Assembly: GCA_009838515.1 (NCBI GenBank)
Contig: VXRL01000080.1
Span: 89,121-153,120, forward strand
Direction of reading: 5' to 3'
Origin: Terriglobia bacterium
GTDB taxonomy: Bacteria; Acidobacteriota; Terriglobia; Bryobacterales; UBA6623
DNA length: 64,000 nt
Part shown: positions 32,921 through 49,992 of the stretch, piece by piece
Numbering within the stretch: position 1 is the stretch's first letter
Layout: each line of letters starts with the position of its first letter
Made by a program: the position numbers and the translations under genes
The notes under the pieces: generated by a model
The model's database searches: none
The model's input: the letters and a program-made list of their open reading frames with translations, nothing else
What the model was told of the DNA's origin: nothing

Positions 32921-33733
32921 ATGAGCAGTGGCCTAACGCTTGGCATTGTCGGGGTAGGAAATCTTGGCGGCGCACTGGCTGAGGGCGCCCTCGAGGCCGG
33001 TGCAGTGGCACGGATCGCTGCATTCGATGTTGCCGAGGAAAGGCTCGGGGAACTCGCCGGTCGCATCGGCCGTTCGTTCGCTCCGGCGAGTATTACCGAG
33101 GTCGCCGGTCAGGCTGACGTGCTGGTGTTCGCTGTCAAGCCACACATCCTTCCGAGAGCGCTTGCAGAGGCTCGGCCCGCGCTGTCGCGGGCCTGTCCGG
33201 TTGTGTCTGTGGCTGCTGGCGTCCAGATCGGCCGCATAGAGGCGGGGCTCCCCGACGAGTGGCCGGTCGTGCGGGCCATGCCCAACCTCGCCATGCTGGT
33301 GGGCGAAAGCGCGACGGCGATCTGCGCAAACCAATTCGCCACCTCAGAGCAGGTGTCGCAAGTCGAATCGATCTTCCGTTCCGTAGGGAGGGTCGTGCGC
33401 GTGGAAGAGCGCCAGATGCACGCTGTCACGGGCTTAACAGGTAGCGGTCCGGCCTACGTGAGCTTGATTGTGGAGGGTCTGGTAGCTGGTGCGATCAAGA
33501 AGGGACTCCAGCCCGCGCTAGCTCAGGAGCTTGCGTGCCAGCTGCTGTTCGGCTCGGCCAAGTTGCTGCTTGAGAAGGGGCTGCATCCGGCAGTGCTGAA
33601 GGATCAGGTCTCGACTCCGGGAGGAACGACCATCGCTGGGCTGCAGGAATTGGAGTCACACGCCGTGCGCGGCGCCTTGCTGGCCGCGGTAGAGGCTGCC
33701 AGCGAACGCTCGGAAGAGCTTGCCCAGGACTGA
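32921..33733 (+). CDS. proC: Pyrroline-5-carboxylate reductase
   Basis: This enzyme catalyses the last step of proline synthesis, NAD(P)H-dependent reduction of pyrroline-5-carboxylate. The Rossmann motif GIVGVGNLGGALAEGAL opens the protein, FAVKPHILPRAL and VVRAMPNLAMLVG follow, and the C-terminal signature is AVTGLTGSGPAYVSLIVEGLVAGAIKKGL with DQVSTPGGTTIAGLQELE. The track begins at GTG 32888; ATG 32921 gives 270 residues, the family norm, and starts right before the Rossmann fold. It appears monocistronic and converges on the next gene (8 nt between stops). Confidence 0.94.
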   Translation: MSSGLTLGIVGVGNLGGALAEGALEAGAVARIAAFDVAEERLGELAGRIGRSFAPASITEVAGQADVLVFAVKPHILPRALAEARPALSRACPVVSVAAGVQIGRIEAGLPDEWPVVRAMPNLAMLVGESATAICANQFATSEQVSQVESIFRSVGRVVRVEERQMHAVTGLTGSGPAYVSLIVEGLVAGAIKKGLQPALAQELACQLLFGSAKLLLEKGLHPAVLKDQVSTPGGTTIAGLQELESHAVRGALLAAVEAASERSEELAQD

Positions 33734-33740
33734 CGAGGCG

Positions 33741-35702
33741 TCACAGCAGGATCCGGCCCTTCAAGCCGAAAGGCTTGGCTATTCCGAAGAAGTCGAGGAT
33801 GGTCGTCGGCAGATCCATGATGTTCGGATGTTCGAAGTTGACCGCATGGCTGCTGAACAGGCATCCAGGCACTAGATCCCTCGCCATGGAATGATCTCCC
33901 CCCCACGCCCACGGATTGAGGTTCAGGATCTCGCTGCCGCTCTCGCCCATCACCGACTCGGAAGATGACCGGTACCCGGGAGTGTACCCGACCAGAAGCT
34001 CCGGCATCTCGCGGGAGAATTCGCCGCCGTAGACTTCTCCTTTGCGATATGCGCGGTGTACCGGGCGCTCGCCAGTGTCCGGGTCGCGGATCGCTTCGAG
34101 CTCCCCCGCGATGCGCTCTGCCAGCCGACCGGCCTCGTCATCGCCCAAGACGCCTTGGCCCTCTCTGCCCAAGCGATTGATATACAGGCCGTTGAACCCT
34201 ATGCCATAGGCTGCCGTGGCTGTCCAGTCGATATCGAGAACGCTCGCCTTGTCCTTGCTCGCGGCTTCGTCCTTGATCGCCAGGTAGCCCTGCTGACGCA
34301 GCCAGGAATTGAGGTGGAACTGGCGGCCGAACGGCGCGAAACCGTGGTCAGAGCACACCAGTAGCAGCGTGTCATCGTCCGCTGCGGGCAGGACGCGGCC
34401 GAGGAGCTTGTCCATTTCTTCGTAAAGGTGGTGGATATACCCCGAGTAGCGGACATCGCTGGCGGCATGCATCGGATGGGTATCGTCCATGTTGCGCCAC
34501 AACATGTGCGTGTCTTGGTCGGTGCTCGAGACGTAGAAAAAGAACAGGCCCTCGCGAAAGCGCTCCCACTCGTGCTCGAAAAGGCGTATGCGGTCCTTGA
34601 GGATCAGCTCGGCCTGCTTGACATAGCCCTCGTCGTCCAGGATGCGGTAGTCGAGGGCCTTGGTGTCCGACGGCAGCCCCTTGGTCCAGAACGGACCGAT
34701 CGCGCTGGCGATCTCGCCGCCGACCTCCTGTGGATGGGAGACAGGCATTGCTTGCGCTGCCGGGTCGATGTTGATGGGAGTGACGTAAAGCTGCAACTGG
34801 GGGTGCGCCTGCTTGAGGTAGAAGCGGCAGATGCCCGCGACACCCACCAGGCCCGAAGCCATTCCGAACCGCACTCTCGTCCAGTCGCTGTACTCGCCTT
34901 CTTGGAGCAGGTGCTGCTGGCCTTGGATAGCAACCAAAACGGCGCTGTTGACCGGATCGACATCAATGGTGAACGGGATCGAGGTGGCGGGCTTGTCCTT
35001 GTGAAGGGAGTCCTCCGGCCCGGCGAGTTCTGTCGTGACGCGGCCCTCGCTGAGCGTGACATGGTGCACGATCCCACCGGTCAAGCTGGGATACAGCTCC
35101 TGCCTGTCAGTCGTGAAGTAGTTGAATCGACCGAACGAGTCTGCCAAGTCTGGCGTTCCCATGCCGCTCAGGGCCCGGGTCGCGGTGTCGTCGACCGGAA
35201 AATTCGTCGGGATCTTGATCACCGTGGAGGGAATCCCGGCATCGGTGAGGTAGGTCCAGAATGGCACCCCGACGCGCTTGTTGACGATGCCCGGGCCGCC
35301 CATGGCGAGTTCGTAGTCGCCCAGGCTGAACGTGCGAGCGGGCGGGCTCGACTCCCAGATCGAGAAGTACGGTTCGTAGGTCAACGGATCGCGCATGATG
35401 AAGTCCGCGATCGTGTGGCTGCCCGGGTCCGTTCCGGTGATGAAGGTGCTCCAAGCGACAGGGCTAAGCGCCGGCATGGTCGTGCCGAGCTCGCGGAACG
35501 AGCCCATCGCTGCCAGCTTGCTAAAGTTCGGAGCCCGCCCTTCGTCCATCAGGGCTTGGATGATCTTGGGGTCAAGACCGTCTAGGCCGAGCACGACCAC
35601 CCGGCGGCCGTTTCCTGGGAGCTGGGGATTCCGACGGCAGCCCAGCCCCGCACTGGAAGCTCCGGCAAGCAGGGAAGTTGCGAACGCCCGTCGCGTGATC
35701 AT
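33741..35702 (-). CDS. Alkaline phosphatase superfamily / type I phosphodiesterase-like protein, Tat-exported
   Basis: The protein has about 653 residues from ATG 35702, with a twin-arginine-like signal (MITRRAFATSLLAGASSAGLG). The phosphodiesterase/nucleotide pyrophosphatase fold is evident: VVVLGLDGLDPKIIQAL (metal Asp), PALSPVAWSTFITGTDPGSH (nucleophile region), LLLVCSDHGFAPFGRQFHLNSWL (metal Asp/His), and GGDHSMARDLVPG near the end. It is probably a periplasmic phosphohydrolase or phosphodiesterase, but the substrate cannot be predicted. It lies 48 nt after uxaC on the same strand, so co-transcription is possible. Confidence 0.85.
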   Translation of the reverse strand: MITRRAFATSLLAGASSAGLGCRRNPQLPGNGRRVVVLGLDGLDPKIIQALMDEGRAPNFSKLAAMGSFRELGTTMPALSPVAWSTFITGTDPGSHTIADFIMRDPLTYEPYFSIWESSPPARTFSLGDYELAMGGPGIVNKRVGVPFWTYLTDAGIPSTVIKIPTNFPVDDTATRALSGMGTPDLADSFGRFNYFTTDRQELYPSLTGGIVHHVTLSEGRVTTELAGPEDSLHKDKPATSIPFTIDVDPVNSAVLVAIQGQQHLLQEGEYSDWTRVRFGMASGLVGVAGICRFYLKQAHPQLQLYVTPINIDPAAQAMPVSHPQEVGGEIASAIGPFWTKGLPSDTKALDYRILDDEGYVKQAELILKDRIRLFEHEWERFREGLFFFYVSSTDQDTHMLWRNMDDTHPMHAASDVRYSGYIHHLYEEMDKLLGRVLPAADDDTLLLVCSDHGFAPFGRQFHLNSWLRQQGYLAIKDEAASKDKASVLDIDWTATAAYGIGFNGLYINRLGREGQGVLGDDEAGRLAERIAGELEAIRDPDTGERPVHRAYRKGEVYGGEFSREMPELLVGYTPGYRSSSESVMGESGSEILNLNPWAWGGDHSMARDLVPGCLFSSHAVNFEHPNIMDLPTTILDFFGIAKPFGLKGRILL

Positions 35703-35750
35703 GATCTGCCGGATCGCGACCAAGCCGCAGCCATCGCTGTCCTACGACCC

Positions 35751-37157
35751 CTAGACACCAGCGAGCGCGAGGTAGTCACGAACGTTGCTAAAGCACAACC
35801 GCCGAACCAGATCGCCCACGAGCGCTTCGTCATTGGGAATCTCACCCTTGGCCATGTCGTTGCCGAGCAGGTTGCACAGCACGCGGCGGAAGTACTCGTG
35901 GCGCGGATAGGACATGAATGAGCGCGAATCCGTCAGCATGCCCACGAAGCGGGACAGCAGGCCGACGTTGGACAGGCAGTTCAACTGCCACTCCATCGCC
36001 TCCTTCTGGTCGAGGTACCACCAGCCCGAGCCGAATTGCATCTTGCCGGGGATCTTGCCGTCCTGGAAGTTGCCCAGCATGGTCGCGAAGGTGTAGTTGT
36101 CGTTCGGGTTGTTGTTGTACAAGATGAGGCGCGGCAGCGCGTCTTCGTGGTCGAGGCGATCCAGGTACCGACCTAGGGCGTCGACCTGGGGCCAGTCTCC
36201 GACCGAATCGAAGCCCGTGTCCGCGCCGGCGGCGCGGAACCCCCGCGTGTTGTTGTTGCGGCGCGCGCCGAGATGCATCTGCTTGGTCCAGCCCCTGGCC
36301 GAATCGAGCTGGCCGAAGTACAGCATCATGAACGCGGCAAACTGGCCGTGCTCGGCTCCCGAGGCGGCAAGCCCGCTCCGCGCCGAGTCGAAGATCGTGC
36401 TGGCAGTAGACTCGGCGGGAAAATTGCAGAAGGCCTGATCCAGGCCGTGGTCTGAGAGGCGGCAGCCCATCTGGTCAAAGAAGTCGTGCCGCTGTTCCAG
36501 CGCGGACAGGAAGTCTTGGAAGGAGCTGATCTTGAGGTTGGCAGCTTGCTCGAGCTTCGCTACCCAAGCGTTAAACGTGTCCGGCTGGTTCACCGTCAAC
36601 GCCCTGTCCGGACGGAAGGCTGGATAGACCTTGGTTTCGAGGTCCGATTCGGCGATCGCTTGGTGGTGAGACAGATCATCTGTCGGATCGTCCGTGGTGC
36701 ACAGAGCCCGGACATCGAACCTGCGAAGAATACCGAACACTCTGAATTCTTCGGTCGCCAGCTTGTCGTTGCAGAGCTGCCAGACTTCTTCAGCATTCGA
36801 TTCGTCGAGCAGGCCGTCGAAGCCGAAATAGCGCTTCAGCTCAAGATGGCTCCAATGGTAAAGAGGGTTGCGCAAGGTATGCGGCATGGTCTTGGCCCAC
36901 GCTAGGAACTTGTCGTGCGGGTCAGCTTCGCCGGTGCAATAGGCTTCGCCCACACCATTGGCGCGCATGGCGCGCCATTTGTAGTGGTCGCCCTCGAGCC
37001 AGATCTCGAATAGGTTCTGGAACTGCCGGTTGGAAGCCACGTCCTGGGGCGGCAGGTGGCAGTGGTAATCGAGGATGGGCTCGTCCTTGGCATAGCCGTG
37101 GTAGAGCCGCTTGGCGTGCTCGGTCTGGAGTAAGAAGTCTTCGTGGATAAAGGACAT
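35751..37157 (-). CDS. uxaC: Uronate (glucuronate) isomerase
   Basis: This enzyme isomerises D-glucuronate to D-fructuronate and D-galacturonate to D-tagaturonate, the first step of hexuronate catabolism. The protein shows the amidohydrolase-like DYHCHLPPQDVASN near residue 30 and the family blocks HWSHLELKRYFG, LCTTDDPTDDLSHH, HLGARRNNN and RLILYNNNPNDNYTFATMLGNFQDG. ATG 37157 is chosen over the TTG 37175 of the track and yields 468 residues, the normal length. It pairs functionally with the tagaturonate epimerase at 53577-54827, on the far side of the defence island. Confidence 0.93.
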   Translation of the reverse strand: MSFIHEDFLLQTEHAKRLYHGYAKDEPILDYHCHLPPQDVASNRQFQNLFEIWLEGDHYKWRAMRANGVGEAYCTGEADPHDKFLAWAKTMPHTLRNPLYHWSHLELKRYFGFDGLLDESNAEEVWQLCNDKLATEEFRVFGILRRFDVRALCTTDDPTDDLSHHQAIAESDLETKVYPAFRPDRALTVNQPDTFNAWVAKLEQAANLKISSFQDFLSALEQRHDFFDQMGCRLSDHGLDQAFCNFPAESTASTIFDSARSGLAASGAEHGQFAAFMMLYFGQLDSARGWTKQMHLGARRNNNTRGFRAAGADTGFDSVGDWPQVDALGRYLDRLDHEDALPRLILYNNNPNDNYTFATMLGNFQDGKIPGKMQFGSGWWYLDQKEAMEWQLNCLSNVGLLSRFVGMLTDSRSFMSYPRHEYFRRVLCNLLGNDMAKGEIPNDEALVGDLVRRLCFSNVRDYLALAGV

Positions 37158-37369
37158 CCGGCTGCTCCGGCGCAATTCCCATCATACGCACAAGGCGGCC
37201 AAGCGGGGAGGCGAGAGCAATCCGTGGCGTTCCCCTCCGACACGGTACCGCGACATCCACTTCGGGCTTGCGTGGATGGATGGCAATTCTGGAGACGAAG
37301 CGCCATTAGGCGATGTTCGCCATCTTGACAGGCGCGATTTCGTGGGGGTTCCCCATCCTTCTAAGGGTC

Positions 37370-37397
37370 TGTCAGTTTTGCGATCATATTTCTGACA
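37370..37397 (+). promoter_or_regulatory. Inverted repeat upstream of AbiE-type pair, candidate operator
   Basis: TGTCAG (37370-37375) and CTGACA (37392-37397) form a perfect inverted repeat with a 16-nt AT-rich spacer (ttttgcgatcatattt). The repeat sits 20 nt upstream of the antitoxin ATG. AbiEi antitoxins are known to autoregulate by binding inverted repeats in their own promoter, so an operator role is plausible. A short ribosome site (AGGAG, 37403-37407) follows. No clean -35/-10 pair was identified. Confidence 0.45.
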
Positions 37398-37416
37398 TCA
37401 GTAGGAGCAGATCATC

Positions 37417-38013
37417 ATGCCCGGCCTACCTCGCCAGATTGAAGACTACGCGGCGACTTTGCCCGAGGGTGCACCCTTGTGCCCAAGCGCATTGTTGCAT
37501 CTAGGCACTCGCGCGGCGGTCGATCAGGCGTTGTCCCGGCTTGCTCGCCGCGGGCGGCTCATGCGTATCTGCCAGGGCGTCTACATGCGACCGATTAAGA
37601 CACGATTTGGCGAATGCTCGCCTGCAATCGAGAGAGTGATCCCATCGCTATCGAAGTTGTGGGGCGAGGTCATCGTCCCTTGCGGTGGCGGCTCTGCCAA
37701 TGTCCTCGGCCTGACGAACCAGGTGCCGGTACGGTTGGTCTTCCTGACCTCTGGACCTGATCGCAATCTCTGGATTGACGGCCAGCCGGTGGTTTTGCGA
37801 CATGCTCCACGCTGGCAGCTGGTCGCTCCGAATCGGCTTGCTGGCAATATCGTCCGGGCTCTCGCTTGGCTGGGGCCCCAAGAGGTGAATGACGGATTGG
37901 ATCGACTAGCTCCCCGGATTTCGGCTGAGGATCTTGCGGAACTCGCTAGCGTCCGTGCCGTACTGCCAGCCTGGCTCGCAGAGCCGATCAGCCGGTTGGT
38001 GGCCCATGCATAA
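37417..38013 (+). CDS. AbiEi/DUF6088-type antitoxin
   Basis: This 198-residue protein has an N-terminal winged-helix region (ALLHLGTRAAVDQALSRLARRGRLMRICQGVYMRP) and a C-terminal domain typical of DUF6088/AbiEi antitoxins (SANVLGLTNQVPVRLVFLTSGPDRNLWIDGQPVVLRHAPRWQL). It is the predicted transcriptional autorepressor and antitoxin for the nucleotidyltransferase encoded next. The start ATG has AGGAG 9 nt upstream. The stop overlaps the toxin start by 8 nt, the usual arrangement. It marks the left edge of the defence island. Confidence 0.8.
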   Translation: MPGLPRQIEDYAATLPEGAPLCPSALLHLGTRAAVDQALSRLARRGRLMRICQGVYMRPIKTRFGECSPAIERVIPSLSKLWGEVIVPCGGGSANVLGLTNQVPVRLVFLTSGPDRNLWIDGQPVVLRHAPRWQLVAPNRLAGNIVRALAWLGPQEVNDGLDRLAPRISAEDLAELASVRAVLPAWLAEPISRLVAHA

Positions 38014-39031
38014 GGCCTGGTTTCCATCCCTGTCGTCCAACGACCGTCAATATGCACTCAGGGTCGCTGCGCCCCGGTGCGGGCGCAGGCCATATTTGCT
38101 CGAAAAGGACATCTGGGTAGTCCAGGCCTTGAGCGTTCTGTTCTCGGCCCCATTTGCCAACGATCTGGTGTTTCAGGGAGGTACGTCGCTCTCGAAGGCC
38201 TACGACATAATCCGGCGCCTTTCGGAGGACATTGACATCACATACGATATTCGGGCCTTCGCCCCTGACTTCGCAGCCGACAGCGAGGAGCCACTACCGC
38301 CCACGCGCAGTCAGGAGAAACGCTGGACGCGGGCGATCCGAGCTCGGCTGGCGGAGTGGACAAAGGAATATGCGTTGCCCGCAGTCCAAGAGGGATTGGC
38401 AAGGAGTCGTTGCGCTGCCGACGTGCGTGCAGACGCTGACCGGATCTACATCGGCTACACACCTCTCTTTGATGGCTATGGATTCGTCAAACCGGAAGTA
38501 AAGCTCGAATTCGGCGCGCGTTCGACCGGCGAGCCGCGGAAGCGGCGTCCCGTCGTCTGCGATGCGTCATTACACCTGCCCGACCTTGCGTTTCCTGCCG
38601 CGTCCCCATCGGTCATGCTGGCCGAGCGCACCTTCTGGGAAAAGGCTACCGCCATGCACGTATTCTGTAAGCGGGAGCGCGGTCGCGGCGACCGGCTTTC
38701 TAGGCACTGGCACGACTTGGTTCGATTGGCCGATGGCGGTTACGCCGCGACCGCGTTGGCCGACCGCAAGCTCGCACGCACCGTCGCACGGAACAAATCC
38801 GTCTTCTTCCGAGAGAAGGACGCGGCGGGCGGTTGGATCGACTATCGAGCGGCGGTGACGGGTGGTTTGCAACTCGTTCCGACCGGCACGGCGCGTGGCG
38901 TGCTTGCCGACGACTATGGCAGGATGCTCCGTGACGGTATGCTCCTCGGCGATGGGGAGACGTTCGAAGACATCATGGGCCGCTGTGCCGATATAGACCT
39001 GAGAGCCAATAGCTACGAGGGCAATGCATAG
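38006..39031 (+). CDS. AbiEii/AbiGii family nucleotidyltransferase toxin
   Basis: The protein has about 341 residues. The track start (37934) lies inside the antitoxin gene; ATG 38006 overlaps it by 8 nt. The nucleotidyltransferase signature is complete: LVFQGGTSLSKAYDIIRRLSEDIDITYDI, i.e. GG(T)S followed by SxDxD. Further family blocks are LLEKDIWVVQALSVLFS near the start, and LAERTFWEKATAMHVFCKRERGRGDRLSRHWHDLVRL. Type IV-like AbiE toxins act as tRNA or NTP nucleotidyltransferases and give abortive phage resistance. All visible catalytic residues are intact, so the pair is probably functional. Confidence 0.88.
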   Translation: MHKAWFPSLSSNDRQYALRVAAPRCGRRPYLLEKDIWVVQALSVLFSAPFANDLVFQGGTSLSKAYDIIRRLSEDIDITYDIRAFAPDFAADSEEPLPPTRSQEKRWTRAIRARLAEWTKEYALPAVQEGLARSRCAADVRADADRIYIGYTPLFDGYGFVKPEVKLEFGARSTGEPRKRRPVVCDASLHLPDLAFPAASPSVMLAERTFWEKATAMHVFCKRERGRGDRLSRHWHDLVRLADGGYAATALADRKLARTVARNKSVFFREKDAAGGWIDYRAAVTGGLQLVPTGTARGVLADDYGRMLRDGMLLGDGETFEDIMGRCADIDLRANSYEGNA

Positions 39032-39039
39032 ATTCTGAG

Positions 39040-39273
39040 CTACGCGTCGAAGTAGGGCGCGGAGCACTCACGTCGACTACTCTTACCGGCTGTGGGGATG
39101 TGGCAAACGCGCAGACCTTGAGCTTGGAAGCCCCAACGTAGCACCACTATGCTGATGCGCACGCCCTCATCATCACGAACACGGCGAACGATGGCGAATG
39201 ACGCTATCGCCGAAGTCTCCGGCCAGTCCTTCTGGACACATGACCGCCGTACCAAACCAATGTCGAAGGACAT
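39040..39273 (-). CDS. Possible small protein after the NERD-helicase gene
   Basis: A 77-codon frame starts at ATG 39273, 16 nt after the stop of the last defence-operon gene, and runs to the end of the island's minus strand. It has no recognisable domain. Its content (IASFAIVRRVRDDEGVRISIVVLRWGFQ) could be a small structured peptide or chance. No strong ribosome site is seen. I include it only because of its position. Confidence 0.2.
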   Translation of the reverse strand: MSFDIGLVRRSCVQKDWPETSAIASFAIVRRVRDDEGVRISIVVLRWGFQAQGLRVCHIPTAGKSSRRECSAPYFDA

Positions 39274-39289
39274 GCACAAGCCGACACCA

Positions 39290-40852
39290 TCAGCAACAGA
39301 TCATGCTCAGCAGTGCGCGCGCCCTACTCATTCCGACATAGTGGTAAGCCCGCAGACTCTCGCTACGTCCGGGTCTAGGCATATCAACAAGAACAATTAC
39401 CTCGCTCTCAAGGCCTTTGAAATCTCCAATCTGAGCAAAACCGATTGCATTACGATTCGAGTTTCGGGGAGAGAAATGATCCAGAACTGCGATCGAATCG
39501 CGAAATTTCGCGGACAGAGAAGACGTCCAAGAATGCGCAAACACATGGGGCGAAAGTATGACTATGTCTCTCGGGTTGAATCCCTCTCGATCAACTAGCC
39601 TACGCAGCTCTCTCTCTAGAGCTTGGATCGCAGTGTCTGAGTCGGCGACATTGACTTCACGTACAGCCGGGCCATCACCAACCCCTGAATTCCCAATATC
39701 GGCGTCAAGATCACCTTGTATCCGTTGCAGGATCGGCAGAGAGTTCCGGCAATTCGTCTTGAGTGGGATGCGAACCGGGTTAAAACTCTCCAAATAATCA
39801 TAAGCGTCGGGCACATAAGAGCCGCACAAGCCGGATTGATTGTTGGCGTCATGAAAAAAGCACCAACGTCCTTCGCCTATTCCACCCTGTAGATAGTTAT
39901 CCAGCTGGGCCAAGGCATCCATGTTCAATATGTCCTGGCCTTCATCGACGATCAGTGCATCGAATTTCTCGATGCCGACACGCTTGGCTGCGACATGAAT
40001 CGACTCCGCCAAACTGACGGTCAACCCGGGCGCCACGCTACGCTCTAAGAATCCCTTGAGCCACGGCGAATGACAGGTCAGTGCGGTCTTCATTCCAGAT
40101 GCGCCCCAGCGCTTCGCCAATTCAAGCGCTAACATAGTCTTCCCCGTACCAGCACCGCCCGAGCATATCACCCGAGGGTTGGCTTCGACGACATCGATGA
40201 GCCGAAGCTGATCCGCTGTCAGCCGTGCGATGCGCGTTTCGACATTATGGGCAGAAATGTGCAACGGTACCACAGCCTCAAAATCAGGGCGCAAATGCTG
40301 CTGCAAAGCTTTCAGATGCGAAGGGATTGCGGTAGGTTTTCGAGAGTCCTTCACGCGCCAGTGACTGAAAAATATCTCCAGCCACTTCTCGAATTGTCTA
40401 AAGTCCGATCCATCTGCGAGAGTGGCACGGTCCCACTCCGCACTATCAGGAAGCCGATCGACATCTGGCATAACAACTCCGTAGCCCACCACGAACAGAT
40501 TGGCAAGAGAAGCGGGCAACTTTTCCAGTAGACCATGTAGTGCTCCCTCAGCTTGCCTGAATGGAGACTCACGCAAACGCTTGGTTTCACCGTACCGATT
40601 TGTAGTTACCCAGATGCCATCATTGCAGGATACTCCGCCACCCTTCACCTCTAGTACAAAGAGACCATGTGGTCCGCAAACAACAAAGTCGATCTCTCCG
40701 AATCGTTTATATTCATGCCGCGGAAGGTTGAGCGAGTGCATCGAAAACCAAGTAGTTTGGTCTGGGCGGGAAAAGGTTGCACGCAGCTGGTCGAACGTAC
40801 GCAATTCCGCTTGGCTGCTGGTGTTCAATGCTTGGTTAGGAATCATTCGCAT
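39290..40852 (-). CDS. NERD nuclease domain fused to UvrD-like SF1 helicase
   Basis: This 520-residue protein is the last gene of the five-gene defence operon. Residues about 10-110 form a NERD-type PD-(D/E)xK nuclease (Nuclease-Related Domain): RFGEIDFVVCGPHGLFVLEVKGG has the Asp and the ExK catalytic pattern. Residues about 210-520 are a superfamily 1 helicase core: Walker A SGGAGTGKTMLA, Walker B ALIVDEGQDIL, GRWCFFHDANNQSG (motif III), LKTNCRNSLPIL (motif IV), FKGLESEVIVLVD (motif V) and YHYVGMSRARALL (motif VI). It starts at ATG 40852, overlapping the previous gene by 10 nt. Its predicted role is DNA unwinding coupled to cleavage. GC and codon use look lower than in the surrounding metabolic genes. 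Confidence 0.85.
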   Translation of the reverse strand: MRMIPNQALNTSSQAELRTFDQLRATFSRPDQTTWFSMHSLNLPRHEYKRFGEIDFVVCGPHGLFVLEVKGGGVSCNDGIWVTTNRYGETKRLRESPFRQAEGALHGLLEKLPASLANLFVVGYGVVMPDVDRLPDSAEWDRATLADGSDFRQFEKWLEIFFSHWRVKDSRKPTAIPSHLKALQQHLRPDFEAVVPLHISAHNVETRIARLTADQLRLIDVVEANPRVICSGGAGTGKTMLALELAKRWGASGMKTALTCHSPWLKGFLERSVAPGLTVSLAESIHVAAKRVGIEKFDALIVDEGQDILNMDALAQLDNYLQGGIGEGRWCFFHDANNQSGLCGSYVPDAYDYLESFNPVRIPLKTNCRNSLPILQRIQGDLDADIGNSGVGDGPAVREVNVADSDTAIQALERELRRLVDREGFNPRDIVILSPHVFAHSWTSSLSAKFRDSIAVLDHFSPRNSNRNAIGFAQIGDFKGLESEVIVLVDMPRPGRSESLRAYHYVGMSRARALLSMICC

Positions 40853-42471
40853 GGTTTGCTGTTCTCATTGCCCGGTTCCTCGATTCCCTCTGCGTTCATT
40901 AAGTTCGTACGGATCTCGGCCTCGATCTGAGGATCAATCAGCGGCCAACGCCCCAAGCGGCGCAGAAATTTGTCCATATCAACTTCTTCAGTAACAGCCT
41001 TTAACATACCGGGCAATACAACCTCCAGGGCGTTTCGTTCGAAACTATGCGGATAATTACCTTCCACCAGAGTGATTCGGGTTTGGATGCAATCGTTCCA
41101 CTTGCACTTCCGCGCAAGCTCCAGTGCCAAGCGCCGTCGTTGGCTGTTCCACTCACGGCCGGAGGACGTAAAGAATCCTCGTAATGGTTTCGGACCGGGA
41201 GGTATATTCACAGAAATGCTATCGCAGTGATTCAAGTGCTCTGCATTTGCCATCCAATAAGCTACGTAGGCAGACACGTCCGGATGACGTAGTTCTTTTG
41301 GAATCTGTAGCCAGCCATCGCGCACACCGAAGAGAATGCCAGCAAGTATGTGCTCAGAATCGTTCAGTAACGGATGTGAAAACTCCAGCAGATCCGTACA
41401 AGTGTCACGTAGGCAGAACAATAGCAGTGGTCTCGACAGAGATCCCTTGTGATGTTGGAGTAGCTCGGTGATTGTTCCACTTCCCAAGCCAAGACAACCG
41501 CGCATATCCACGATCAATCGCTCCAAGCGTGGCCCGATTTCCGATTTTCTTAGAAGCTTGCTCTGACCTTCCAAGTAACCAATTGCGACATCCAATGGTG
41601 TTTGCGGACGTTCCTGAAATTGCGCGGAGGAGAGCGATTGTATTACCCCCAGAAAAATCCGTGTACGCGTATCTGCTTGGGTAGATATCTCACCGCTTTT
41701 CATCCAGTTGGAGATCTCGAAAAGAATGGGATCGCTTTGAGATAGGTCATCATTTCCGTCAGGCGTTCCTTCAGTAACTGACCGGAAAACGGCGAGCCCA
41801 AGATCACTTCGATTCGCGAAGTGGTACAGCATCGCGAGCGCACCACCAAGCGCCTGTCCAAGAGCAGGGAATTCATTATGCCTATCCTCAAAAAGTTGCT
41901 CTTCCGGTTGCCTTAACGGCAACCCGACGTGCGTATCAGTGTCAAATAATGACTCCGAGACTACAAGCTGACGAGACTTTAGATCCACATTTGAAACATC
42001 GTGTGCGGCGCGCTCGAATGCTTGCATGTCGGCGGAAGAACGAAAGTTAATTCTGAGTAGCAACGTCGTCGGCAATGGCGCTCGAATCAGTATGGCAACA
42101 TCGTCCCGCCGTTTTCTTGTAGCTGGTGAGGCCACGTCCCGCGTAACGCCGTTTCGCGAGAGCATGCGAACGGGACCGGACAGGTCGCTCAAATCGAATG
42201 ACGCGATGCAGGGCAACAAGTGCTTACGCTCAACGGTTGCATGATTCACTGCGTCATCTGGAATCATCTCCTTGGCCCGGAACAACGGAATCCACCCTGG
42301 ATAAAGTTCCAAAGAATCGGAATAGTACTTACCGCGAAAACCAGCGGGGCTCATCACCATATCGGCAGCCAGCATATAGAGCATGTTGGGATGGTTGGTT
42401 ACCAGGTGCCATATGCGGGCGGTTCGCCGCCGACGTGTCGGTTTCTTCAGAGAGCCGCTTAGCGTGGTCAT
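40843..42471 (-). CDS. Unassigned 542-residue protein of the DrmA/DrmB-type operon
   Basis: I do not recognise any domain in this protein. The N-terminus is basic (KKPTRRRRTARIWHLV). A patterned block follows (HPNMLYMLAADMVMSPAGFRGKYYSDSLELYPGWIPLFRAKEMIP). The rest is mixed alpha/beta with an acidic middle and ends in EEPGNENSKPCE. There are no membrane helices, Walker motifs, DxD/ExK clusters or zinc knuckles that I can see. It starts 3 nt after the UvrD-like gene and its end overlaps the NERD-helicase gene by 10 nt, so it is clearly part of the operon. It may be a specificity or effector subunit. Lower GC than flanking genes suggests transfer. Confidence 0.7.
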   Translation of the reverse strand: MTTLSGSLKKPTRRRRTARIWHLVTNHPNMLYMLAADMVMSPAGFRGKYYSDSLELYPGWIPLFRAKEMIPDDAVNHATVERKHLLPCIASFDLSDLSGPVRMLSRNGVTRDVASPATRKRRDDVAILIRAPLPTTLLLRINFRSSADMQAFERAAHDVSNVDLKSRQLVVSESLFDTDTHVGLPLRQPEEQLFEDRHNEFPALGQALGGALAMLYHFANRSDLGLAVFRSVTEGTPDGNDDLSQSDPILFEISNWMKSGEISTQADTRTRIFLGVIQSLSSAQFQERPQTPLDVAIGYLEGQSKLLRKSEIGPRLERLIVDMRGCLGLGSGTITELLQHHKGSLSRPLLLFCLRDTCTDLLEFSHPLLNDSEHILAGILFGVRDGWLQIPKELRHPDVSAYVAYWMANAEHLNHCDSISVNIPPGPKPLRGFFTSSGREWNSQRRRLALELARKCKWNDCIQTRITLVEGNYPHSFERNALEVVLPGMLKAVTEEVDMDKFLRRLGRWPLIDPQIEAEIRTNLMNAEGIEEPGNENSKPCE

Positions 42472-42474
42472 GAC

Positions 42475-43659
42475 CTACTTCCTAGCAAGAATAGCGGGTT
42501 CGGTAGGTAGCAGCCCATCGACAACTGGACAGGCATCGCCGGTACGAAGGAGGATGACCTGTTCTCGGGCACGCGCCACCATCACGTAAAACCGTGCCTT
42601 GAGCGCGTGCCGGTCCTGCTTAGGTTGGTGCTGGTCTATATCGGCCAAGATGGCTGTATCAAATTCAAGGCCCTTGCAGGACTGGGCGTTGATGATCATG
42701 ATGCCACCCTGGCTAAAATTTGGTAGTTCCCGCTGGCCGGAAACGAAGGTCTGGATCGGTGGCTTGCCGTTATCGAGGTTCGGGTTGGCACGAACAAGTC
42801 CATCATTGAATTTATTTCGCACTTTATTGTCTGGGGTAATGATTCCAATTAGCCTGCGTGGGTTGCGGTCGCTCAGTTGGAGGATACGATCCGCAAGTTC
42901 GGCAAATGATTGGGTGCTTGTCTGACCATAAGTCCAAAGTTCTGGCGTCACAGCGGATGAACTGGAGTGAGGTAAGTCAGGCTTCGGGCTGGCCGGATCA
43001 GCTGGATAGAAGTGTTGCGCTAATGACGCGATTGTCCGTGTGTTTCGGTAGTTGATTTTGAGCTCTACTGTGTCGCCTTGGTCGATAGCAAGGAGGTCCT
43101 CGATATCCTGCCGTGAACTACACCTATCAGGCTGTATCTGCTGATTCTGGTCTGCCGCTACATAGAAGTTCTCGAAGCCAAGCTGGGTCAGAGTGCGATA
43201 GAAAGCGGGGGGCATATCCTGACCTTCATCGATTACCAGATATTTTCCGTTCAAATTCTTGTTAGTGAATTCTCCCTGAGCCAACTGCTCAACAGCCTCC
43301 CAATCAATTGGCCGGTAACCGCCAGCGTACTCTGGTTCGCGTGTTGGAACAGTGTCAAAAAAGTATTTGAAGATTCCTCGGAACCAAGAGTCCCAAGTCT
43401 TGGCGGAGAAAGGCTGTTTACTGCCAAACAGATGTCGGTTTGAATGATCCAGCAAGTGGTTGTAAACGAGAGTTCGGTAGGTCCTCTCGTCCTGCGCCAA
43501 GCGTCGTGCCCGCAACAGCGCCACGACTGACTTACCTGTGCCAGGGCCGCCGACTACCAAGTGTTGTCCCTCCAGTGGCAAAGCCAGGGCTTCATCTTGA
43601 TCCTTGTTCAGATCCTGAATCCCTGGCAGCGTGAATCGGCGGCTGCGGTCTACTGGCAC
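42475..43659 (-). CDS. Compact UvrD-like SF1 helicase
   Basis: This 394-residue ATPase/helicase contains a nearly complete SF1 core without the large inserts of UvrD. Visible motifs are Q-like NKDQDEALALPLEGQH, Walker A VVGGPGTGKSVVAL, Walker B YLVIDEGQDMPPAFY, motif III FYVAADQNQQI, motif IV KINYRNTRTIASL, motif V IINAQSCKGLEFDTAIL and motif VI FYVMVARAREQVIL. It starts with GTG 2 nt after the DrmB-like stop, so the two are tightly coupled. A second UvrD-like helicase lies two genes downstream, so the operon encodes three NTPases with the DrmA-like protein. A phage-DNA processing role is inferred. Confidence 0.85.
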   Translation of the reverse strand: MPVDRSRRFTLPGIQDLNKDQDEALALPLEGQHLVVGGPGTGKSVVALLRARRLAQDERTYRTLVYNHLLDHSNRHLFGSKQPFSAKTWDSWFRGIFKYFFDTVPTREPEYAGGYRPIDWEAVEQLAQGEFTNKNLNGKYLVIDEGQDMPPAFYRTLTQLGFENFYVAADQNQQIQPDRCSSRQDIEDLLAIDQGDTVELKINYRNTRTIASLAQHFYPADPASPKPDLPHSSSSAVTPELWTYGQTSTQSFAELADRILQLSDRNPRRLIGIITPDNKVRNKFNDGLVRANPNLDNGKPPIQTFVSGQRELPNFSQGGIMIINAQSCKGLEFDTAILADIDQHQPKQDRHALKARFYVMVARAREQVILLRTGDACPVVDGLLPTEPAILARK

Positions 43660-43661
43660 GG

Positions 43662-45485
43662 TTAGGACATACCAAAGAAGGAAGGCATTCCGTTGGCGGC
43701 ATCGCCTTTGACGAAAACTCGGTCCAGCAAGGTGTTTCCGTATTCGCAGGCAGGCTCGGGTACCAGCGCGCAGGCATGGCAGGCGGCGCGGTTCAGCACG
43801 CTCGGACCCTGACCCTCATGCTCGCTGCAGACTGGATCCAGCGAACACCAGCGTGAATGCTCTAGTGCACGAGTCAGAATGCCTAGAGAGCGTCGGGGTT
43901 CGCTTAGCTCGGCCAGCCCACCCAAAGAGCCGGCAACGTCGGGAACAGCTACATGAATGAGAATTCCGGCCATGGGTTCGGGTAAGTTGGCACAATAGAT
44001 GCGTTCAATCAGCGACGCACCAGGATATCCTCCCTCAGACTCGATTTGTCGCATCAGCAGATGTGACAGCGTATGCAGTAACAGGAAGCGTGCTGTCAGT
44101 GGGATAGGGGAGTCGCGACCAGATTGTGCGAATCGGGGAAGAAGTCGATTAAGTCGCGAAGTGACTGCGGTTTCTTGCTCCCAGTCCTGGAGTCGCTCTT
44201 CGTCGAGTACGACAAATATGCCTTCGCCATACAATTCGGTGGCGGGCAACCAGTCAGATTGTCCGACGATGTCTGGCGGCACTACCTCTTTGCCGCCCAT
44301 GCGGGTGAATCCCTTAAATGCTTTCACCGCCTTAAGCCGGTCGACGCGAACGAGGTGCCGGATGCCTTGGACTATTTTCCTAGCGTGACTGTCCGATACA
44401 TCTGCGTTTCCCAGTTCACGCCACCCGGCGCTGTTATTGCGTGTGACCAAGTCCTCGTCATCGCGCTGGTCTTGCCGTACCTCCAGAAACGCCTCGAACT
44501 CGCTTTCGCGTAATTGGCCAGGCGTAAGGTTCTTACCGTACAAGGGATAGCCGCGGTTGAGCTCAGCCAAAGCGGTCTTGATATCGTCGTATGAGCAACG
44601 ATACTCCGTCGCCAGCGCATTTATCATGCCTTTTCTCGCCAATGGCGTTTTCGCCCCGTCGATTCGGGCGCGATGATCTGAATTGCGATACAGGTTATCA
44701 ACGACTGTCCCCTTTCTCACGCGGGATTCAGGTGGAACTACCAGCACGGATTCATCGATTGGCACGTAAGCCCGAGTGTCGTTGATAGCCAGCACTTGCG
44801 CGAGATCATTGCCTTCTTTCTCAACGGCCTCTCTCGGCGGTACTAGATCGTGTTCGGTCCAGGGTTGCATTCGGCCTTGACCGAAGCTCAATCGCTCATC
44901 GCCACGAAACCTGACCTCAGCGTGGCAGGCATCGCACTGTAACGTGCGTTCTTCGTAGCCGCGTTCGATCAATCGAAGTTGGTCTCTGACCTCACAGTTG
45001 GCCTGCGCAGGATTGCGTGTGTCCCTGTGCGCGAGAAAGTGCCACGGCACATCGGCAAGGAATCCACCGGGATCCGCAAGTATCCAGTTCACCTGCTCAA
45101 GAATCGGGTGGGATTCGCATTCCTTTCGAATACAAGGAGGGGAATAGTCAAGTCGATCCCGTTTCCACGGCCATCGGTACAGTGCACCGCAACTGGGGCA
45201 CCGAGCCCACGACGGAAATCGCGTTGTCGGTACACAAACACCATCCACTTGGCCATTCTTCAGTTGCGTCGCCACAGGTGGGCCACGCAGTTGCTGGTCG
45301 ATTCCCAACGCGGAGCGCACACGCTCTACGTACGGAATCACTTTGCCAGCCACGATACCCCGGCGATCCGTCCATTGACGAGTGTCCTGAACGACCACCA
45401 GCCCATTCGGCCACCGAACAATCGCCCCTACACTGCTTTGACCGAGTAGGTGGGAGAGGCGTATAGGAATCAGTCCATCGGACAC
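43662..45485 (-). CDS. drmB-like: DrmB-like DUF1998 protein
   Basis: This 607-residue protein resembles DISARM DrmB. The N-terminal part begins with an (L)GQSSVGAIVRW block followed by cysteine clusters (CPSCGALYRW, CIRKEC, CDACHAEV) likely to bind zinc. The DUF1998 hallmark is LLHTLSHLLMRQIESEGGYPGASLIERIYC near residue 475. The C-terminal cluster CSLDPVCSEHEGQGPSVLNRAACHACALVPEPACEYGN holds the expected cysteines. It starts with GTG 3 nt after the DrmA-like stop. In DISARM, DrmA and DrmB form a DNA-binding complex that blocks phage DNA, and the same is inferred here. Annotation as 'DISARM' is not supported by the rest of the operon. Confidence 0.85.
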   Translation of the reverse strand: MSDGLIPIRLSHLLGQSSVGAIVRWPNGLVVVQDTRQWTDRRGIVAGKVIPYVERVRSALGIDQQLRGPPVATQLKNGQVDGVCVPTTRFPSWARCPSCGALYRWPWKRDRLDYSPPCIRKECESHPILEQVNWILADPGGFLADVPWHFLAHRDTRNPAQANCEVRDQLRLIERGYEERTLQCDACHAEVRFRGDERLSFGQGRMQPWTEHDLVPPREAVEKEGNDLAQVLAINDTRAYVPIDESVLVVPPESRVRKGTVVDNLYRNSDHRARIDGAKTPLARKGMINALATEYRCSYDDIKTALAELNRGYPLYGKNLTPGQLRESEFEAFLEVRQDQRDDEDLVTRNNSAGWRELGNADVSDSHARKIVQGIRHLVRVDRLKAVKAFKGFTRMGGKEVVPPDIVGQSDWLPATELYGEGIFVVLDEERLQDWEQETAVTSRLNRLLPRFAQSGRDSPIPLTARFLLLHTLSHLLMRQIESEGGYPGASLIERIYCANLPEPMAGILIHVAVPDVAGSLGGLAELSEPRRSLGILTRALEHSRWCSLDPVCSEHEGQGPSVLNRAACHACALVPEPACEYGNTLLDRVFVKGDAANGMPSFFGMS

Positions 45486-45488
45486 GGT

Positions 45489-48400
45489 TCATAGCACCTT
45501 AAGCAGGGCAGTGTCCTCCACGTTGCGTAGCGACTGCAAGGTCGCCCACAGGCCGCGAATTTTGTCGTCGTGGTTGTATAGCAGGCGGTCGCGGCCGGTG
45601 TTCTGATTTGGAACCTGATACTCCAGCTTTCTTCTACCATTACAACGTTTGACCTCAGACTGCCAGTCTATCATGAGAGATGTGATATGCCGCTGTACTT
45701 CATCGGCCTGATCGGGTGCGGCCTGTGCGCAACGCCGTCCAAGACGTTCCGCGGCCTCGGCGACGCTTAGATTCTTTGGATCAAAGTCGGCAGCGGTATC
45801 ATTCCCGAGCAGCCCCAGCCTAGCATGACGCATCACGATCACCAGCGCCGCGTGCAGAGCACGATTGCGTGCCTGGTAGGTATAAGGCGTAATGCTGGTG
45901 GGCTCGACAAAGCGGTAGAAGGCCTCATGATAGGGGCGAAAACTCTCGTAATGTGACAGACTGCGCGCCTGATCGCGATAGTAGTTGGCGAACACTAGAC
46001 CGGCCACTTCGCCCCGACCCACTCGACTACTGGCCTGGATGTATTCCGCCGCGGTTAACGGCTGGCCATTGATGATCATCAGTGCAAGCCGGGCCACGTC
46101 AAGCCCGACCGAGATCATGTTGGTAGCCAGTACTGCATCGAGGCAGCCGACCTTATCGCGCTCCTTTTTCAATCGGCCGAATATTTCTGCATTCTGCTCG
46201 GCCGTCTGCGAACTGGTGAGCTGGGCAATGCTTGGCGTCGAGCGTCGTTGATTCGGCGTTCTCTCGTTTTCCTGAGATCGGGCACGCGCGACGCCGGGCA
46301 ACAACTGCATGTATTCGCGCACATCGCTGGCAAATGCCGCATGGCTGTTTGCGACGCCTTTCAGGCTTCCGTGATACACCACCTGCGTCCACCAGGCATC
46401 CAAGAGTTCTCGTGAGTCCCGTTCACCCTCGAACAAGGTAAATGGGGCCAGCAGCAGTGCTGCCGCCAAAGGGGCCATACACTGCTGACGGTTTAGCATC
46501 GGTGCCAGATAGCCGACGTAGATGCGACCCGGGCGTTGCTCCAACGGTACGGTACGAGAGAAATAGGCGTCGTCGCAGCTCAGCCCGGGTGGTGGGAACA
46601 CGGCCACTTCTCGGCCATATAGTCGTTTCACCTGTTGATCCGCCATGCGGATGGTGGCGGTCGAGGCGATGTACTTCGGGTACACGCCGCGCAGCTGCAG
46701 GACGGTGTCGATGGCGGCCTCATATAGGCCGGCCAGCGAGCCCAGGGTGCTGGAGATCAGGTGCAACTCATCTTGGATGATAAGTTCCGGCGGTCGATGT
46801 AGCTCACCGCCAAAGAACGCGTTGGCGCGCTCTTCCCAAGTGAGTCTGGCGAATTTGTCCACCGTGGCGACCAGCATGGTCGGTGCTTCGGCATACAACG
46901 CTTCGTCAACGACATTACAGGGAAGCATGCCATCTGCGGACACGCCGAAGGTACAGTTTGGGTTACGGCAGAGGAAGTGGAAGTGCTTCGCGGTGCTCTC
47001 GTAGTTGCGAGTCGAGTCAAACTCTTGCTCACACCACGGGCAACCAAATAGGACCAGCGCAGGCTTTTCACCGGTAGTGCGCGCCTTGTCTACAAGCTCG
47101 GCGGCTTTCTGGAAGCTGTTTGGGCTGATGGCCTCTCCTACCCACATGCCGATAGTGACCGGGGCCGAGCCGAGATCCGCTCGTTCACGCCGAATCAGTT
47201 CTAGTGCACAGATGAGACGGGTGGCGCGTATGAACTGATCGCGGGTCAACAGGCGAAGGGTGTAACGCATCAGGACAGCAGTTCCGCCTCCAGTATCGGG
47301 ATGACGAAGGCGCCGCAGCGCAATCTGGAATGCTACTAAGCCGAGGTAAGCCTCCGTCTTACCCCCACCCGTTGGGAACCATATCAGGTCGACCGTATCG
47401 CGGAATTCGCTGTCCTCGTTCGCCGTAGATTCCAGAGTGGTCAACAGGAAGGCCAACTGAAACGGGCGCCAGCGATAGGCATCGTCCGCACGGGACTTGC
47501 CCTGTAAACGATCGTGCTGGCGCATCTGGTCCAGCATGGCTCGATTGGCCAGAGCGAATGCCAGTCTTGCCTGTGAATTCACGTCCAGCAGGCGCAGGCT
47601 GGCTCGCATGCGCTGGACAGCCATATTCATTCGGGCGACCAAGCGGTTCCCCACCACATGATCATCAAGCTGCAGGACCGAGATTTGCCCCTGCTGCCTT
47701 GTGACCCATTCGGCGTATTCATCGACGAACGCAGCCAGCGCGGGCAGGAGGGTTGGGTACATGTCGTGGATTTCCGCCAATCGCGCCAGCGACAACACAG
47801 GTTCACCACCCGATCCGGTGTCTGCCGTCATCTGCGGAACCTCCACCAGTGGCATCGTCTCGGAGCGCAGCTCAACTACCTTGCCGCCCTTCAATTCCCA
47901 GTTGGCAGCACAGCCATGCCCGACTGCGTAGATACGCCGATCCTTATACTGGAGTTCGATTTCCTGCTCTTCAGGGTCGAGCAGACTACGATCAACACGT
48001 GGATAGACGCCAATTTCCCCGGAATCGATCACGCAGCGCAGGCTGGCCTCGAACAGGGTCTTTTTCGCGCGCTCGAAGACATAGTCTCTACCCGTCTCTT
48101 TGTCGCTCAGGTCCTGTGTATTGCATAGAGAAACCGTGACGATCCACCCACCGAAGAAATGACGCCACTGAACATCCACGCGCGCCTTTCCTTCTAGCTT
48201 GAGAAAGCTCTGGCGCTGGTCGTCTCCGGGACAACTGATGTTCTCAAACTCCTCGTCATGTCCTTGTGCTGATACTAGGCTGTGGCGGTTCCATTCGTTC
48301 TTATACCGTCCTCGTTCGTCACGTTCTGCAGGCTCATATCCCACGGCACGGCACAATACCTCAAACCGAAGATCATTGCCTTCGATGAAAAACGAGAAGC

Positions 48401-48671
48401 CCAACGATGACGGCGGGATGTATCGCCGCACGATGGCAGGTTCAGTAATGCTTTCACCCGCGACTTCGCCCGCACCTTCACTCTCATCCACGTCTTCGCC
48501 AGTGGGATCAAGGCCTTCACCCCACCGGGATGTAGGGTAGAGCGCACCGCAGGGGAACCGTTCTGTAGGCAGGACGCCACGGAGGTGTGGGCCATCATCC
48601 ACTGGCTCAGGTGGCCCGATGAGTTGCTTGCGCACCCAGTCGATCAGATTCCTACGCGGTTCAGTGAACAT
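45489..48671 (-). CDS. drmA-like: DrmA-like helicase-domain protein
   Basis: This is a protein of about 1060 residues with the DISARM DrmA layout. The N-terminal segment (NLIDWVRKQLIGPPEP, PTERFPCGALYPTSRWGEG, LGFSFFIEGNDLRFEV) precedes a SF2 helicase core with Walker A WFPTGGGKTEAYLGL near residue 420, a zinc-like CPWCEQEF/CRNPNC pair and LIIQDELHLISSTLGSLAGLYE (Walker B DELH). The C-terminal helicase domain is AVLATNMISVGLDVARLALMIINGQPLTAAEYIQASSRVGRG. The ATG at 48671 is preferred to the TTG at 48677. It is the first gene of the operon, and its 5' end sits 38 nt from the IS66 remnant, so the promoter must lie in or just before that remnant. All helicase motifs look intact. Confidence 0.88.
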   Translation of the reverse strand: MFTEPRRNLIDWVRKQLIGPPEPVDDGPHLRGVLPTERFPCGALYPTSRWGEGLDPTGEDVDESEGAGEVAGESITEPAIVRRYIPPSSLGFSFFIEGNDLRFEVLCRAVGYEPAERDERGRYKNEWNRHSLVSAQGHDEEFENISCPGDDQRQSFLKLEGKARVDVQWRHFFGGWIVTVSLCNTQDLSDKETGRDYVFERAKKTLFEASLRCVIDSGEIGVYPRVDRSLLDPEEQEIELQYKDRRIYAVGHGCAANWELKGGKVVELRSETMPLVEVPQMTADTGSGGEPVLSLARLAEIHDMYPTLLPALAAFVDEYAEWVTRQQGQISVLQLDDHVVGNRLVARMNMAVQRMRASLRLLDVNSQARLAFALANRAMLDQMRQHDRLQGKSRADDAYRWRPFQLAFLLTTLESTANEDSEFRDTVDLIWFPTGGGKTEAYLGLVAFQIALRRLRHPDTGGGTAVLMRYTLRLLTRDQFIRATRLICALELIRRERADLGSAPVTIGMWVGEAISPNSFQKAAELVDKARTTGEKPALVLFGCPWCEQEFDSTRNYESTAKHFHFLCRNPNCTFGVSADGMLPCNVVDEALYAEAPTMLVATVDKFARLTWEERANAFFGGELHRPPELIIQDELHLISSTLGSLAGLYEAAIDTVLQLRGVYPKYIASTATIRMADQQVKRLYGREVAVFPPPGLSCDDAYFSRTVPLEQRPGRIYVGYLAPMLNRQQCMAPLAAALLLAPFTLFEGERDSRELLDAWWTQVVYHGSLKGVANSHAAFASDVREYMQLLPGVARARSQENERTPNQRRSTPSIAQLTSSQTAEQNAEIFGRLKKERDKVGCLDAVLATNMISVGLDVARLALMIINGQPLTAAEYIQASSRVGRGEVAGLVFANYYRDQARSLSHYESFRPYHEAFYRFVEPTSITPYTYQARNRALHAALVIVMRHARLGLLGNDTAADFDPKNLSVAEAAERLGRRCAQAAPDQADEVQRHITSLMIDWQSEVKRCNGRRKLEYQVPNQNTGRDRLLYNHDDKIRGLWATLQSLRNVEDTALLKVL

Positions 48672-48709
48672 TCGCAACTGCCCAGGTAATCCTCAAGCGC
48701 AAGCACTGA

Positions 48710-49297
48710 TCAATGGGATGGCCGGGATTCCACTCTCGCCAGCAGGGCCGGCGGCCCTTGCAGCAAGAACTCAATACGGTTCAGACCCTGCTTCGGCGCA
48801 GTCAATAGTACGCTGCGCAGCGTGGCGAAATCTCGTGCCCCGTGCTTGGAGCGGCACCCACCCGAGATCTTCATGCCCAGATTAATCATGCGCAGATACC
48901 GTTCCGCCTGATCGTTGGTGAAGTGCACCCTGTTATCCCACGGAATGCGTAGCACCGATTCCCGCCTCTCCCTCAGCCTCAACGCCAGATTGTGACTTGG
49001 TCGGCGCATTTTGCGACCCCGTCGTCCGCTCGGCAAGGCGGTCAGCGCTTGGTAACGGGTCTGCGCTTCCCGCACCAATTGGTCGAAGCGCCGCTCGAGC
49101 CTCTCCAGCAGCGAGCGCGGCAGTGCCGTGCCCTGCTCCCACACGATCCACCCTGCCCGGTTCGCCCGCCTGAGCAGCTGTTGCATTCGCCGCGCCCAAG
49201 CTTGCCCGTCGATCTCCGCCAAGACCTCTGCATCGAGCAAATGATGGGCACTACACATCGCGTGCGAGACTCCCCCGACCTTTAAGTGGGACGCCAA
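48710..49297 (-). pseudogene. C-terminal remnant of an IS66-family transposase
   Basis: This 195-codon frame matches only the C-terminal half of IS66-type transposases: MCSAHHLLDAEVLAE near the start, then FTNDQAERYLRMINLGMKISGGCRSKHGARDFATLRSVLLTAPKQGLNRIEFLL. The N-terminal zinc finger, leucine zipper and first catalytic Asp block are missing, and no terminal inverted repeats were found. It is a decayed insertion, on the same strand and directly upstream of the DrmA-like gene. It could supply the operon's promoter or mark how the island arrived. Confidence 0.8.
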
Positions 49298-49619
49298 GTA
49301 GGGTGGCTACAGAACGGTAGACAGGTAGAGATGCGGCAGCAACGGTTACTCCGCAACAGACTGCATTATGATGGCCGAGTAGGCCGAAGAAGTCAACGTC
49401 ATCATCATCCCTTCTTCTCGCTTTTCCTTCCGCAGTCTTGAGGGAGGCTGCTTCAGCTAGGCGGAATAGGGCTGTTTGGGGCAAATTTGAACAGGCACGG
49501 CCACCAGAACGGGCACGTCGTGCGCCCGGCTATAGCCGGAAGAGATTAGCAGTCGACGCCGCCCCTCTCCGTAGCATATTCGTTCGCTTTCTCACCCAAT
49601 CCGTCTCGAAATAATCTGA
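49298..49619. other. Gap between IS66 and Mrr remnants, no supported gene
   Basis: The only frame here (49251-49484, minus, 77 codons) overlaps the IS66 remnant in another frame and has no domain I recognise. The stretch looks like decayed mobile or restriction-system DNA. Confidence 0.4.
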
Positions 49620-49960: not shown

Positions 49961-49992
49961 CCCAGCGCCACAACCATTGGTCGCGGGCTCAG

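Follow-up and report, generated by a model that had tools for sequence, protein, structure and literature searches.

Within the window, a stretch of 64,000 nucleotides from contig VXRL01000080.1 of a Terriglobia bacterium, two adjacent and co-directional genes on the forward strand were identified. The first gene, abiEi (37417-38013), encodes a predicted autorepressor antitoxin of 198 amino acids, a DUF6088 protein with a winged helix-turn-helix and a C-terminal domain, and is preceded by the sequence AGGAG (37403-37407), a probable ribosome binding site 9 nt upstream of its ATG. The second gene, abiEii (38006-39031), encodes a protein of 341 amino acids, which by homology is a nucleotidyltransferase toxin and whose ATG is located inside the end of abiEi. 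Both open reading frames lie where a previous sequence-only reading of this DNA had placed them, and the 8-nt overlap it described could be read as ATGCATAA. Among known systems, both proteins are matched best by the PADLOC models PDLC02226 (AbiEi, 2.4e-53) and PDLC02289 (AbiEii, 8.5e-90) and by the Pfam models DUF6088 (5.9e-20) and AbiEii (1.4e-32), all of which are silent on an operator. By homology, the pair is an AbiE-type (type IV) toxin-antitoxin system. The residues G58, G59, D75, D77, K213 and D237 of AbiEii are invariant in an alignment of 39 toxins. They include the GG of motif I (58-59), the D75-x-D77 of motif II, which follows after a gap of 15 residues, and K213 of motif III, and the earlier statement that the catalytic residues are intact is borne out for these three motifs. 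Motif IV reads R233-H-W-x-D237 and is likewise invariant in the 39 homologues; its last aspartate is kept and the first is a histidine, and the +DxxD form published for Streptococcus agalactiae AbiEii was not found for this AbiEii in the same alignment. As judged from these homologues, RHWxD is a variant of motif IV that is fixed in the subfamily, not a sign of decay. Within the genus, pairwise dN/dS values of abiEi range from 0.09 to 0.24.

As a search of the AbiEi profile against PDB sequences gave nothing significant, a comparison of folds was used in its place. The AlphaFold2 model of AbiEi (pLDDT 93.3) has M. tuberculosis Rv2827c (1zel) and S. agalactiae AbiEi (6y8q) as its best PDB folds, with a Foldseek probability of 1.00 and an E value of ~2e-3, and according to this model the N-terminal part of the protein is the winged helix of the AbiEi fold. 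The AbiEii model (pLDDT 91.1) is most similar to MenT4 (6y56, 2.4e-6) and MenT3/TglT. The pair resembles Rv2827c/Rv2826c (MenA4/MenT4) in the folds of antitoxin and toxin, with low sequence identities of 17% and 15%, respectively. The toxins MenT4 and MenT3/TglT attach nucleotides to tRNA (PMC10435456), and tRNA is therefore our best guess for the target of AbiEii.

Upstream of abiEi, a putative 28-bp operator is located at positions 37370-37397 of the forward strand, in which the arms TGTCAGTT (37370-37377) and TTCTGACA (37390-37397) are separated by a spacer of 12 nt. The family consensus is TGTCAGAA-N12-TTCTGACA, of which TGTCAG-N16-CTGACA forms the core. This core had been noticed before and is indeed present, although its distance from the abiEi ATG is 19 nt and not the 20 nt given at the time. 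In the window, the left arm has six of the eight consensus bases and is an imperfect mirror of the right arm; 0.02 TGTCAG/CTGACA pairs with spacers of 14-18 nt are expected by chance in the window. A probable -10 element, CATATT (37385-37390), is situated inside the operator and touches the right arm. Homologues have TATATT, TATACT or TATAAT at this place, and columns 16-21 of the operator alignment show T, A, T, A, any base and T, with frequencies of 88, 95, 83 and 90% for the first four positions and 100% for the last (42 loci). The alignment hence places TATA(T/C)T between the arms, with a weak TTGAAA 17 bp upstream of the -10 element, and the operator would therefore cover the -10 element together with the site at which transcription is expected to begin. 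A scan with the sigma-70 consensus found no promoter and no good -35 element was recognised, the scan being blank because the -35 is poor; the -10 element was recognised from the alignment of homologues. In most promoters of a set of loci from the same order (L014-L027, family f3), the abiEi start lies only 1-7 nt past the operator, so that the transcripts of this group probably have little or no leader.

To compare the repeat among homologues, AbiEi proteins were gathered from related genomes and, via AbiEii, from GTDB genomes; the counts given here refer to related sequences, and to allow for kinship, duplicates were collapsed and shuffles and a tree were used. All 16 arm positions are present in 30 of 88 non-redundant loci and 14 or 15 positions in 14 more, and 35 of 36 exact TGTCAG/CTGACA pairs have the N16 spacing. 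The arm columns contain 1.55-2.0 bits of information, the flanks mostly less than 0.5. The same contrast is seen among six congeneric genomes of the clade to which the window belongs, where 13 of the 16 positions in the arms do not vary, compared to 12 of the 59 in the flanks (Fisher p = 1.3e-5). The exact operator is found upstream of AbiEi homologues with identities down to 43%, and among the loci in the tree exact copies occur in Acidobacteriota, Pseudomonadota, Cyanobacteriota, Chloroflexota and Rhodothermota, and a copy with 15 of 16 positions in Gemmatimonadota. The sequence-only reading had named a comparison in close homologues as a check on the repeat, and there the repeat is conserved. 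In a maximum-likelihood tree of 86 AbiEi proteins, almost every deep branch has the full operator. In one crown group, two clades show an eroding left arm; they are named MR and MK after the first residues of their proteins, and in MK the expected position of the left arm is occupied by a TTATATT box. In the MN clade, no recognisable operator was found; helix residue 37 has changed from glutamine to arginine in 13 of 13 proteins and Asp36 is lost, whereas Gln37 is present in 41 of 41 full-operator sequences outside the MR, MK and MN clades. Two further arrangements were observed. The source genome contains a second, diverged AbiE pair with 35-39% identity (L288/L002, contig C2 of G000, ~17300-18900), which keeps a -10-like box beside TTCTGAC and lacks the left arm, and several AbiEi-family genes are arranged in tandem over ~4.5 kb on contig C153 of genome G265 (L310).

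The presence of related clades with only the right arm or with no recognisable operator indicates that one half-site may suffice or that other operators exist. AbiEi might accordingly bind a single half-site, the right arm TTCTGACA beside the -10 element, the left arm being an eroding relic. Such an arrangement would fit with a drifting left arm next to a perfect right arm in both the window clade and the MR clade, with the -10-like character of the box that replaces the left arm in the MK clade, and with the single arm retained by the second pair of this genome. However, the six congeneric genomes all share GTCAG in the left arm while differing in the flanks, and both arms are exact across most of the deeper tree, so that we regard a function of the right half-site alone as possible but doubtful.

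In bacterial genomes, hardly any copies of the operator occur away from abiE promoters. A gene-blind search of 200 related genomes returned 12 exact sites, 11 of which are located directly upstream of abiEi, and the reversed pattern, used as a control, gave no site in the same genomes. No AbiEi open reading frame is present at the twelfth site (L115), which may be a relic. In the 5.8-Mb source genome, a relaxed version of the operator matches only once, namely at the abiE promoter (37370-37397). Exact sites were also found in 14 of 20 genomes of other groups, which belong to several phyla and were chosen for holding an abiE pair; all 15 sites precede an abiE pair, and through one of them Afipia birgiae was found to hold a second pair that had gone unnoticed. 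Homologues are furthermore encoded on plasmids (456 records), and among ten plasmid homologues sampled across the ranking, with 35-52% identity, eight match the operator at 15-16 of 16 positions, their spacers being 12-14 nt long. The Pseudomonas brassicacearum plasmid homologue, with K37, has 14 of 16 positions with N14, and no site was found for the P. putida plasmid homologue, which has R37. The motif lacks this specificity in a collection of viral contigs, where only 6 of 70 exact matches adjoin abiEi; most of the others come from two families of repeated phage sequence whose fixed spacers are non-promoter sequence. One viral contig (L144, 10467-12007) carries an AbiEi of the family with an exact operator and, ~290 nt further on, an open reading frame of 191 amino acids, which contains LYHGCDKEVAESVL and looks like an ADP-ribosyltransferase. 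No AbiEii was found in this region, and this AbiEi possibly has a different partner.

The half-sites vary among clades together with the predicted recognition helix of AbiEi, which comprises residues 32-44 (codons 37510-37548, forward strand) and in which D36, Q37 and S40 are the positions that change with the half-site. A sequence-blind search for palindromes, which also covered more distant homologues and required 8-bp arms that are complementary at 7 or more of their 8 positions and have AA at the inner ends, found such palindromes upstream of 93 of 171 AbiEi genes, compared to 0.9% in shuffled sequences. At least eight different half-sites are used among the clades, and both arms are altered together. 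The half-site TGTCAGAA is found with D36 Q37 S40 and a TGTCAGAA-like half-site with D36 K37 S40; TGTCCGAA occurs with D36 K37 Q40, TGTCCAAA with D36 R37, TGCAAGAA with D36 S37 H40, TGAAAGAA with D36 L37 M40 and TTCCAGAA with D36 E37, while TGTCACAA and TGTAACAA accompany R36 Q37 S40 and R36 Q37 A40, respectively. In a count of distinct classes, G occupies position 6 of the half-site in 7 of the 8 classes that have D36, compared to 1 of the 5 that lack it; for example, D36 goes with G at this position and R36 with C. Among the K37 forms, S40 or Q40 goes with A or C, respectively, at half-site position 5. The symmetric changes of the arms are, in our view, the strongest evidence that one protein would read both arms via the AbiEi helix 32-44. 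As the classes are few and related, we treat a recognition code as a hypothesis. We nevertheless lean towards the view that DUF6088-type AbiEi proteins are a large family of self-repressors, whose operators have been altered on both arms many times over and track helix residues 36, 37 and 40 in the manner of a readable DNA-recognition code.

From their conservation and covariation with AbiEi, the two arms very probably constitute the AbiEi operator. TGTCA/TGACA-like half-sites are common to several repressor families, and the repeat could for this reason be the operator of another, host-encoded regulator, with AbiEi not binding to it. We consider this very improbable: in genomes of several phyla the site is almost confined to abiE promoters, on plasmids it accompanies abiEi, and its half-site varies with the recognition-helix residues of AbiEi itself.

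The gene content of related genomes is in accordance with a toxin-antitoxin pair. In two congeners (G010 and G001, loci L005 and L009), abiEii is gone and abiEi is intact with its operator, and abiEii is likewise lost with retention of abiEi and operator at three more distant loci (L025, L026 and L027); at these five loci, AbiEii is deleted or present as fragments. Conversely, a full abiEi is located upstream in 63 of 66 loci with a complete toxin gene, and of the three exceptions one lies at a contig edge, one is affected by masked sequence and one has a broken abiEi. The toxin is therefore lost while the antitoxin is kept and not the reverse, an asymmetry that is predicted for a toxin-antitoxin pair.

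Downstream of abiEii, an insertion (39071-49992) contains a DrmA/DrmB-type operon convergent to abiE and an IS66 transposase remnant (48713-49297, reverse strand). The operon (39290-48677, reverse strand) encodes proteins of the DrmA (1062 amino acids) and DrmB (607 amino acids) types, followed by a UvrD-like helicase (394 amino acids), and also includes genes for a 542-amino acid protein without a Pfam or PADLOC match and a NERD-helicase (520 amino acids). Genes for a methyltransferase or a phospholipase D were not seen in it, and we therefore describe it as a DISARM-like operon with unusual content. It had been suggested that the island here holds at least two separate defence modules, and AbiE and the DrmA operon are indeed adjacent and convergent. 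However, three genomes of sister species (L034-L036) align with ~86-90% identity over 33005-39071 and again from 49992, and the intervening 10.9 kb are absent from them. This places abiE in a shared backbone, into which the DrmA/DrmB operon and the IS66 remnant were inserted. The insertion is specific to the source genome among those compared and is later than abiE, the two being separate events. As the Drm insertion is missing from sister genomes that hold AbiE together with its flanks, a common origin is refuted, and a single functional defence island made up of AbiE and the DrmA operon is very improbable.

We propose, with considerable confidence, a type IV AbiE-type operon in which AbiEi would occlude its own promoter via two half-sites and a MenT-like AbiEii would be neutralised by AbiEi. 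To this end, AbiEi, probably as a dimer, would bind to two 8-bp half-sites spaced about two helical turns apart (20 bp from centre to centre). These half-sites bracket the -10 element and, probably, the start of transcription; their occupation would exclude RNA polymerase from the abiE promoter. A function of the repeat as RNA, in the form of a leader hairpin or terminator as its position near the start codon might suggest, is the least credible alternative and can be set aside, as the repeat folds no better than shuffled sequence (z = -0.12), no terminator-like site was found at it, the -10 element lies inside the repeat and the left arm would therefore be untranscribed, and the arms and the spacer length are conserved, not a loop or stem. 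AbiEii would be translated from the overlapping start and, as a MenT-like nucleotidyltransferase, would halt growth, probably via tRNA modification, unless AbiEi neutralises it. Binding, dimerisation and repression by AbiEi are steps that we infer, as we do the toxicity of AbiEii, its tRNA target and any anti-phage role of the pair. Repression of its own promoter by occlusion is very likely. The S. agalactiae AbiEi has been described as binding as one monomer per repeat (PMC7319586), and the dimer is hence an assumption here.

Autorepression is expected by analogy with the S. agalactiae AbiEi, but the operator here has another sequence, length and spacing. Like the S. agalactiae system, the pair described here is a two-gene operon with a winged-helix antitoxin, an AbiEii protein with GG-x15-DxD and a fold match to 6y8q. 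S. agalactiae AbiE is autorepressed via inverted repeats that overlap the promoter, and the likeness seen here lies in the position of the operator in the sequence. The S. agalactiae operator consists of the 11-bp repeats TGTTGCTTTTA-N27-TAAAAGCAACA (PMC3985639) and extends to two 23-bp repeats 3 bp apart (PMC3985639, PMC7319586). In contrast, the operator described here has 28 bp with 8-bp arms, a spacer of 12 nt (13-14 in some clades) and an unrelated sequence, and S. agalactiae-type arms (TGTTGCTTTTA) with a 27-bp separation were not found in it. The systems also differ in that the antitoxin here is a DUF6088 protein and that motif IV of the toxin is RHWxD and not +DxxD. To judge from the sequences, the operator is therefore analogous to that of S. 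agalactiae, but shorter and of a different architecture. The sequence-only reading had taken the repeat as a match to the known autorepression by AbiEi; an inverted repeat at the promoter, with conservation and covariation, agrees with this, but a match to the published operator in sequence or layout does not exist. The M. tuberculosis pair Rv2827c/Rv2826c is also autoregulated through inverted repeats (PMC7319586), but there four 23-bp repeats act with negative cooperativity, whereas here one short palindrome is present. A rhizobial AbiE pair has been described in Mesorhizobium huakuii, in which mutation of abiEi alters nodulation and the stress response and AbiEi has 221 amino acids compared to 198 here; as a prior description of the exact operator this work was discounted, as no operator sequence was found in the parts of it available to us (PMC8436566). 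A literature search with the arm sequences gave only unrelated papers among the matches listed, and a full-text search returned almost nothing on DUF6088 antitoxins, with only two papers in which DUF6088 is named.

Taken together, AbiEi operators have so far been defined in few species. As the operator described here occurs almost only at abiE promoters in bacterial genomes, it can serve as a finder of unannotated pairs, as in Afipia birgiae, and of toxin-less loci with a regulated antitoxin. With one palindrome present across five phyla and others in related clades, the matching of antitoxin to DNA becomes testable via residues 36, 37 and 40. If the recognition code is true, coexisting AbiE systems would be mutually insulated, and the operator of any member of the family would be predictable from its sequence.
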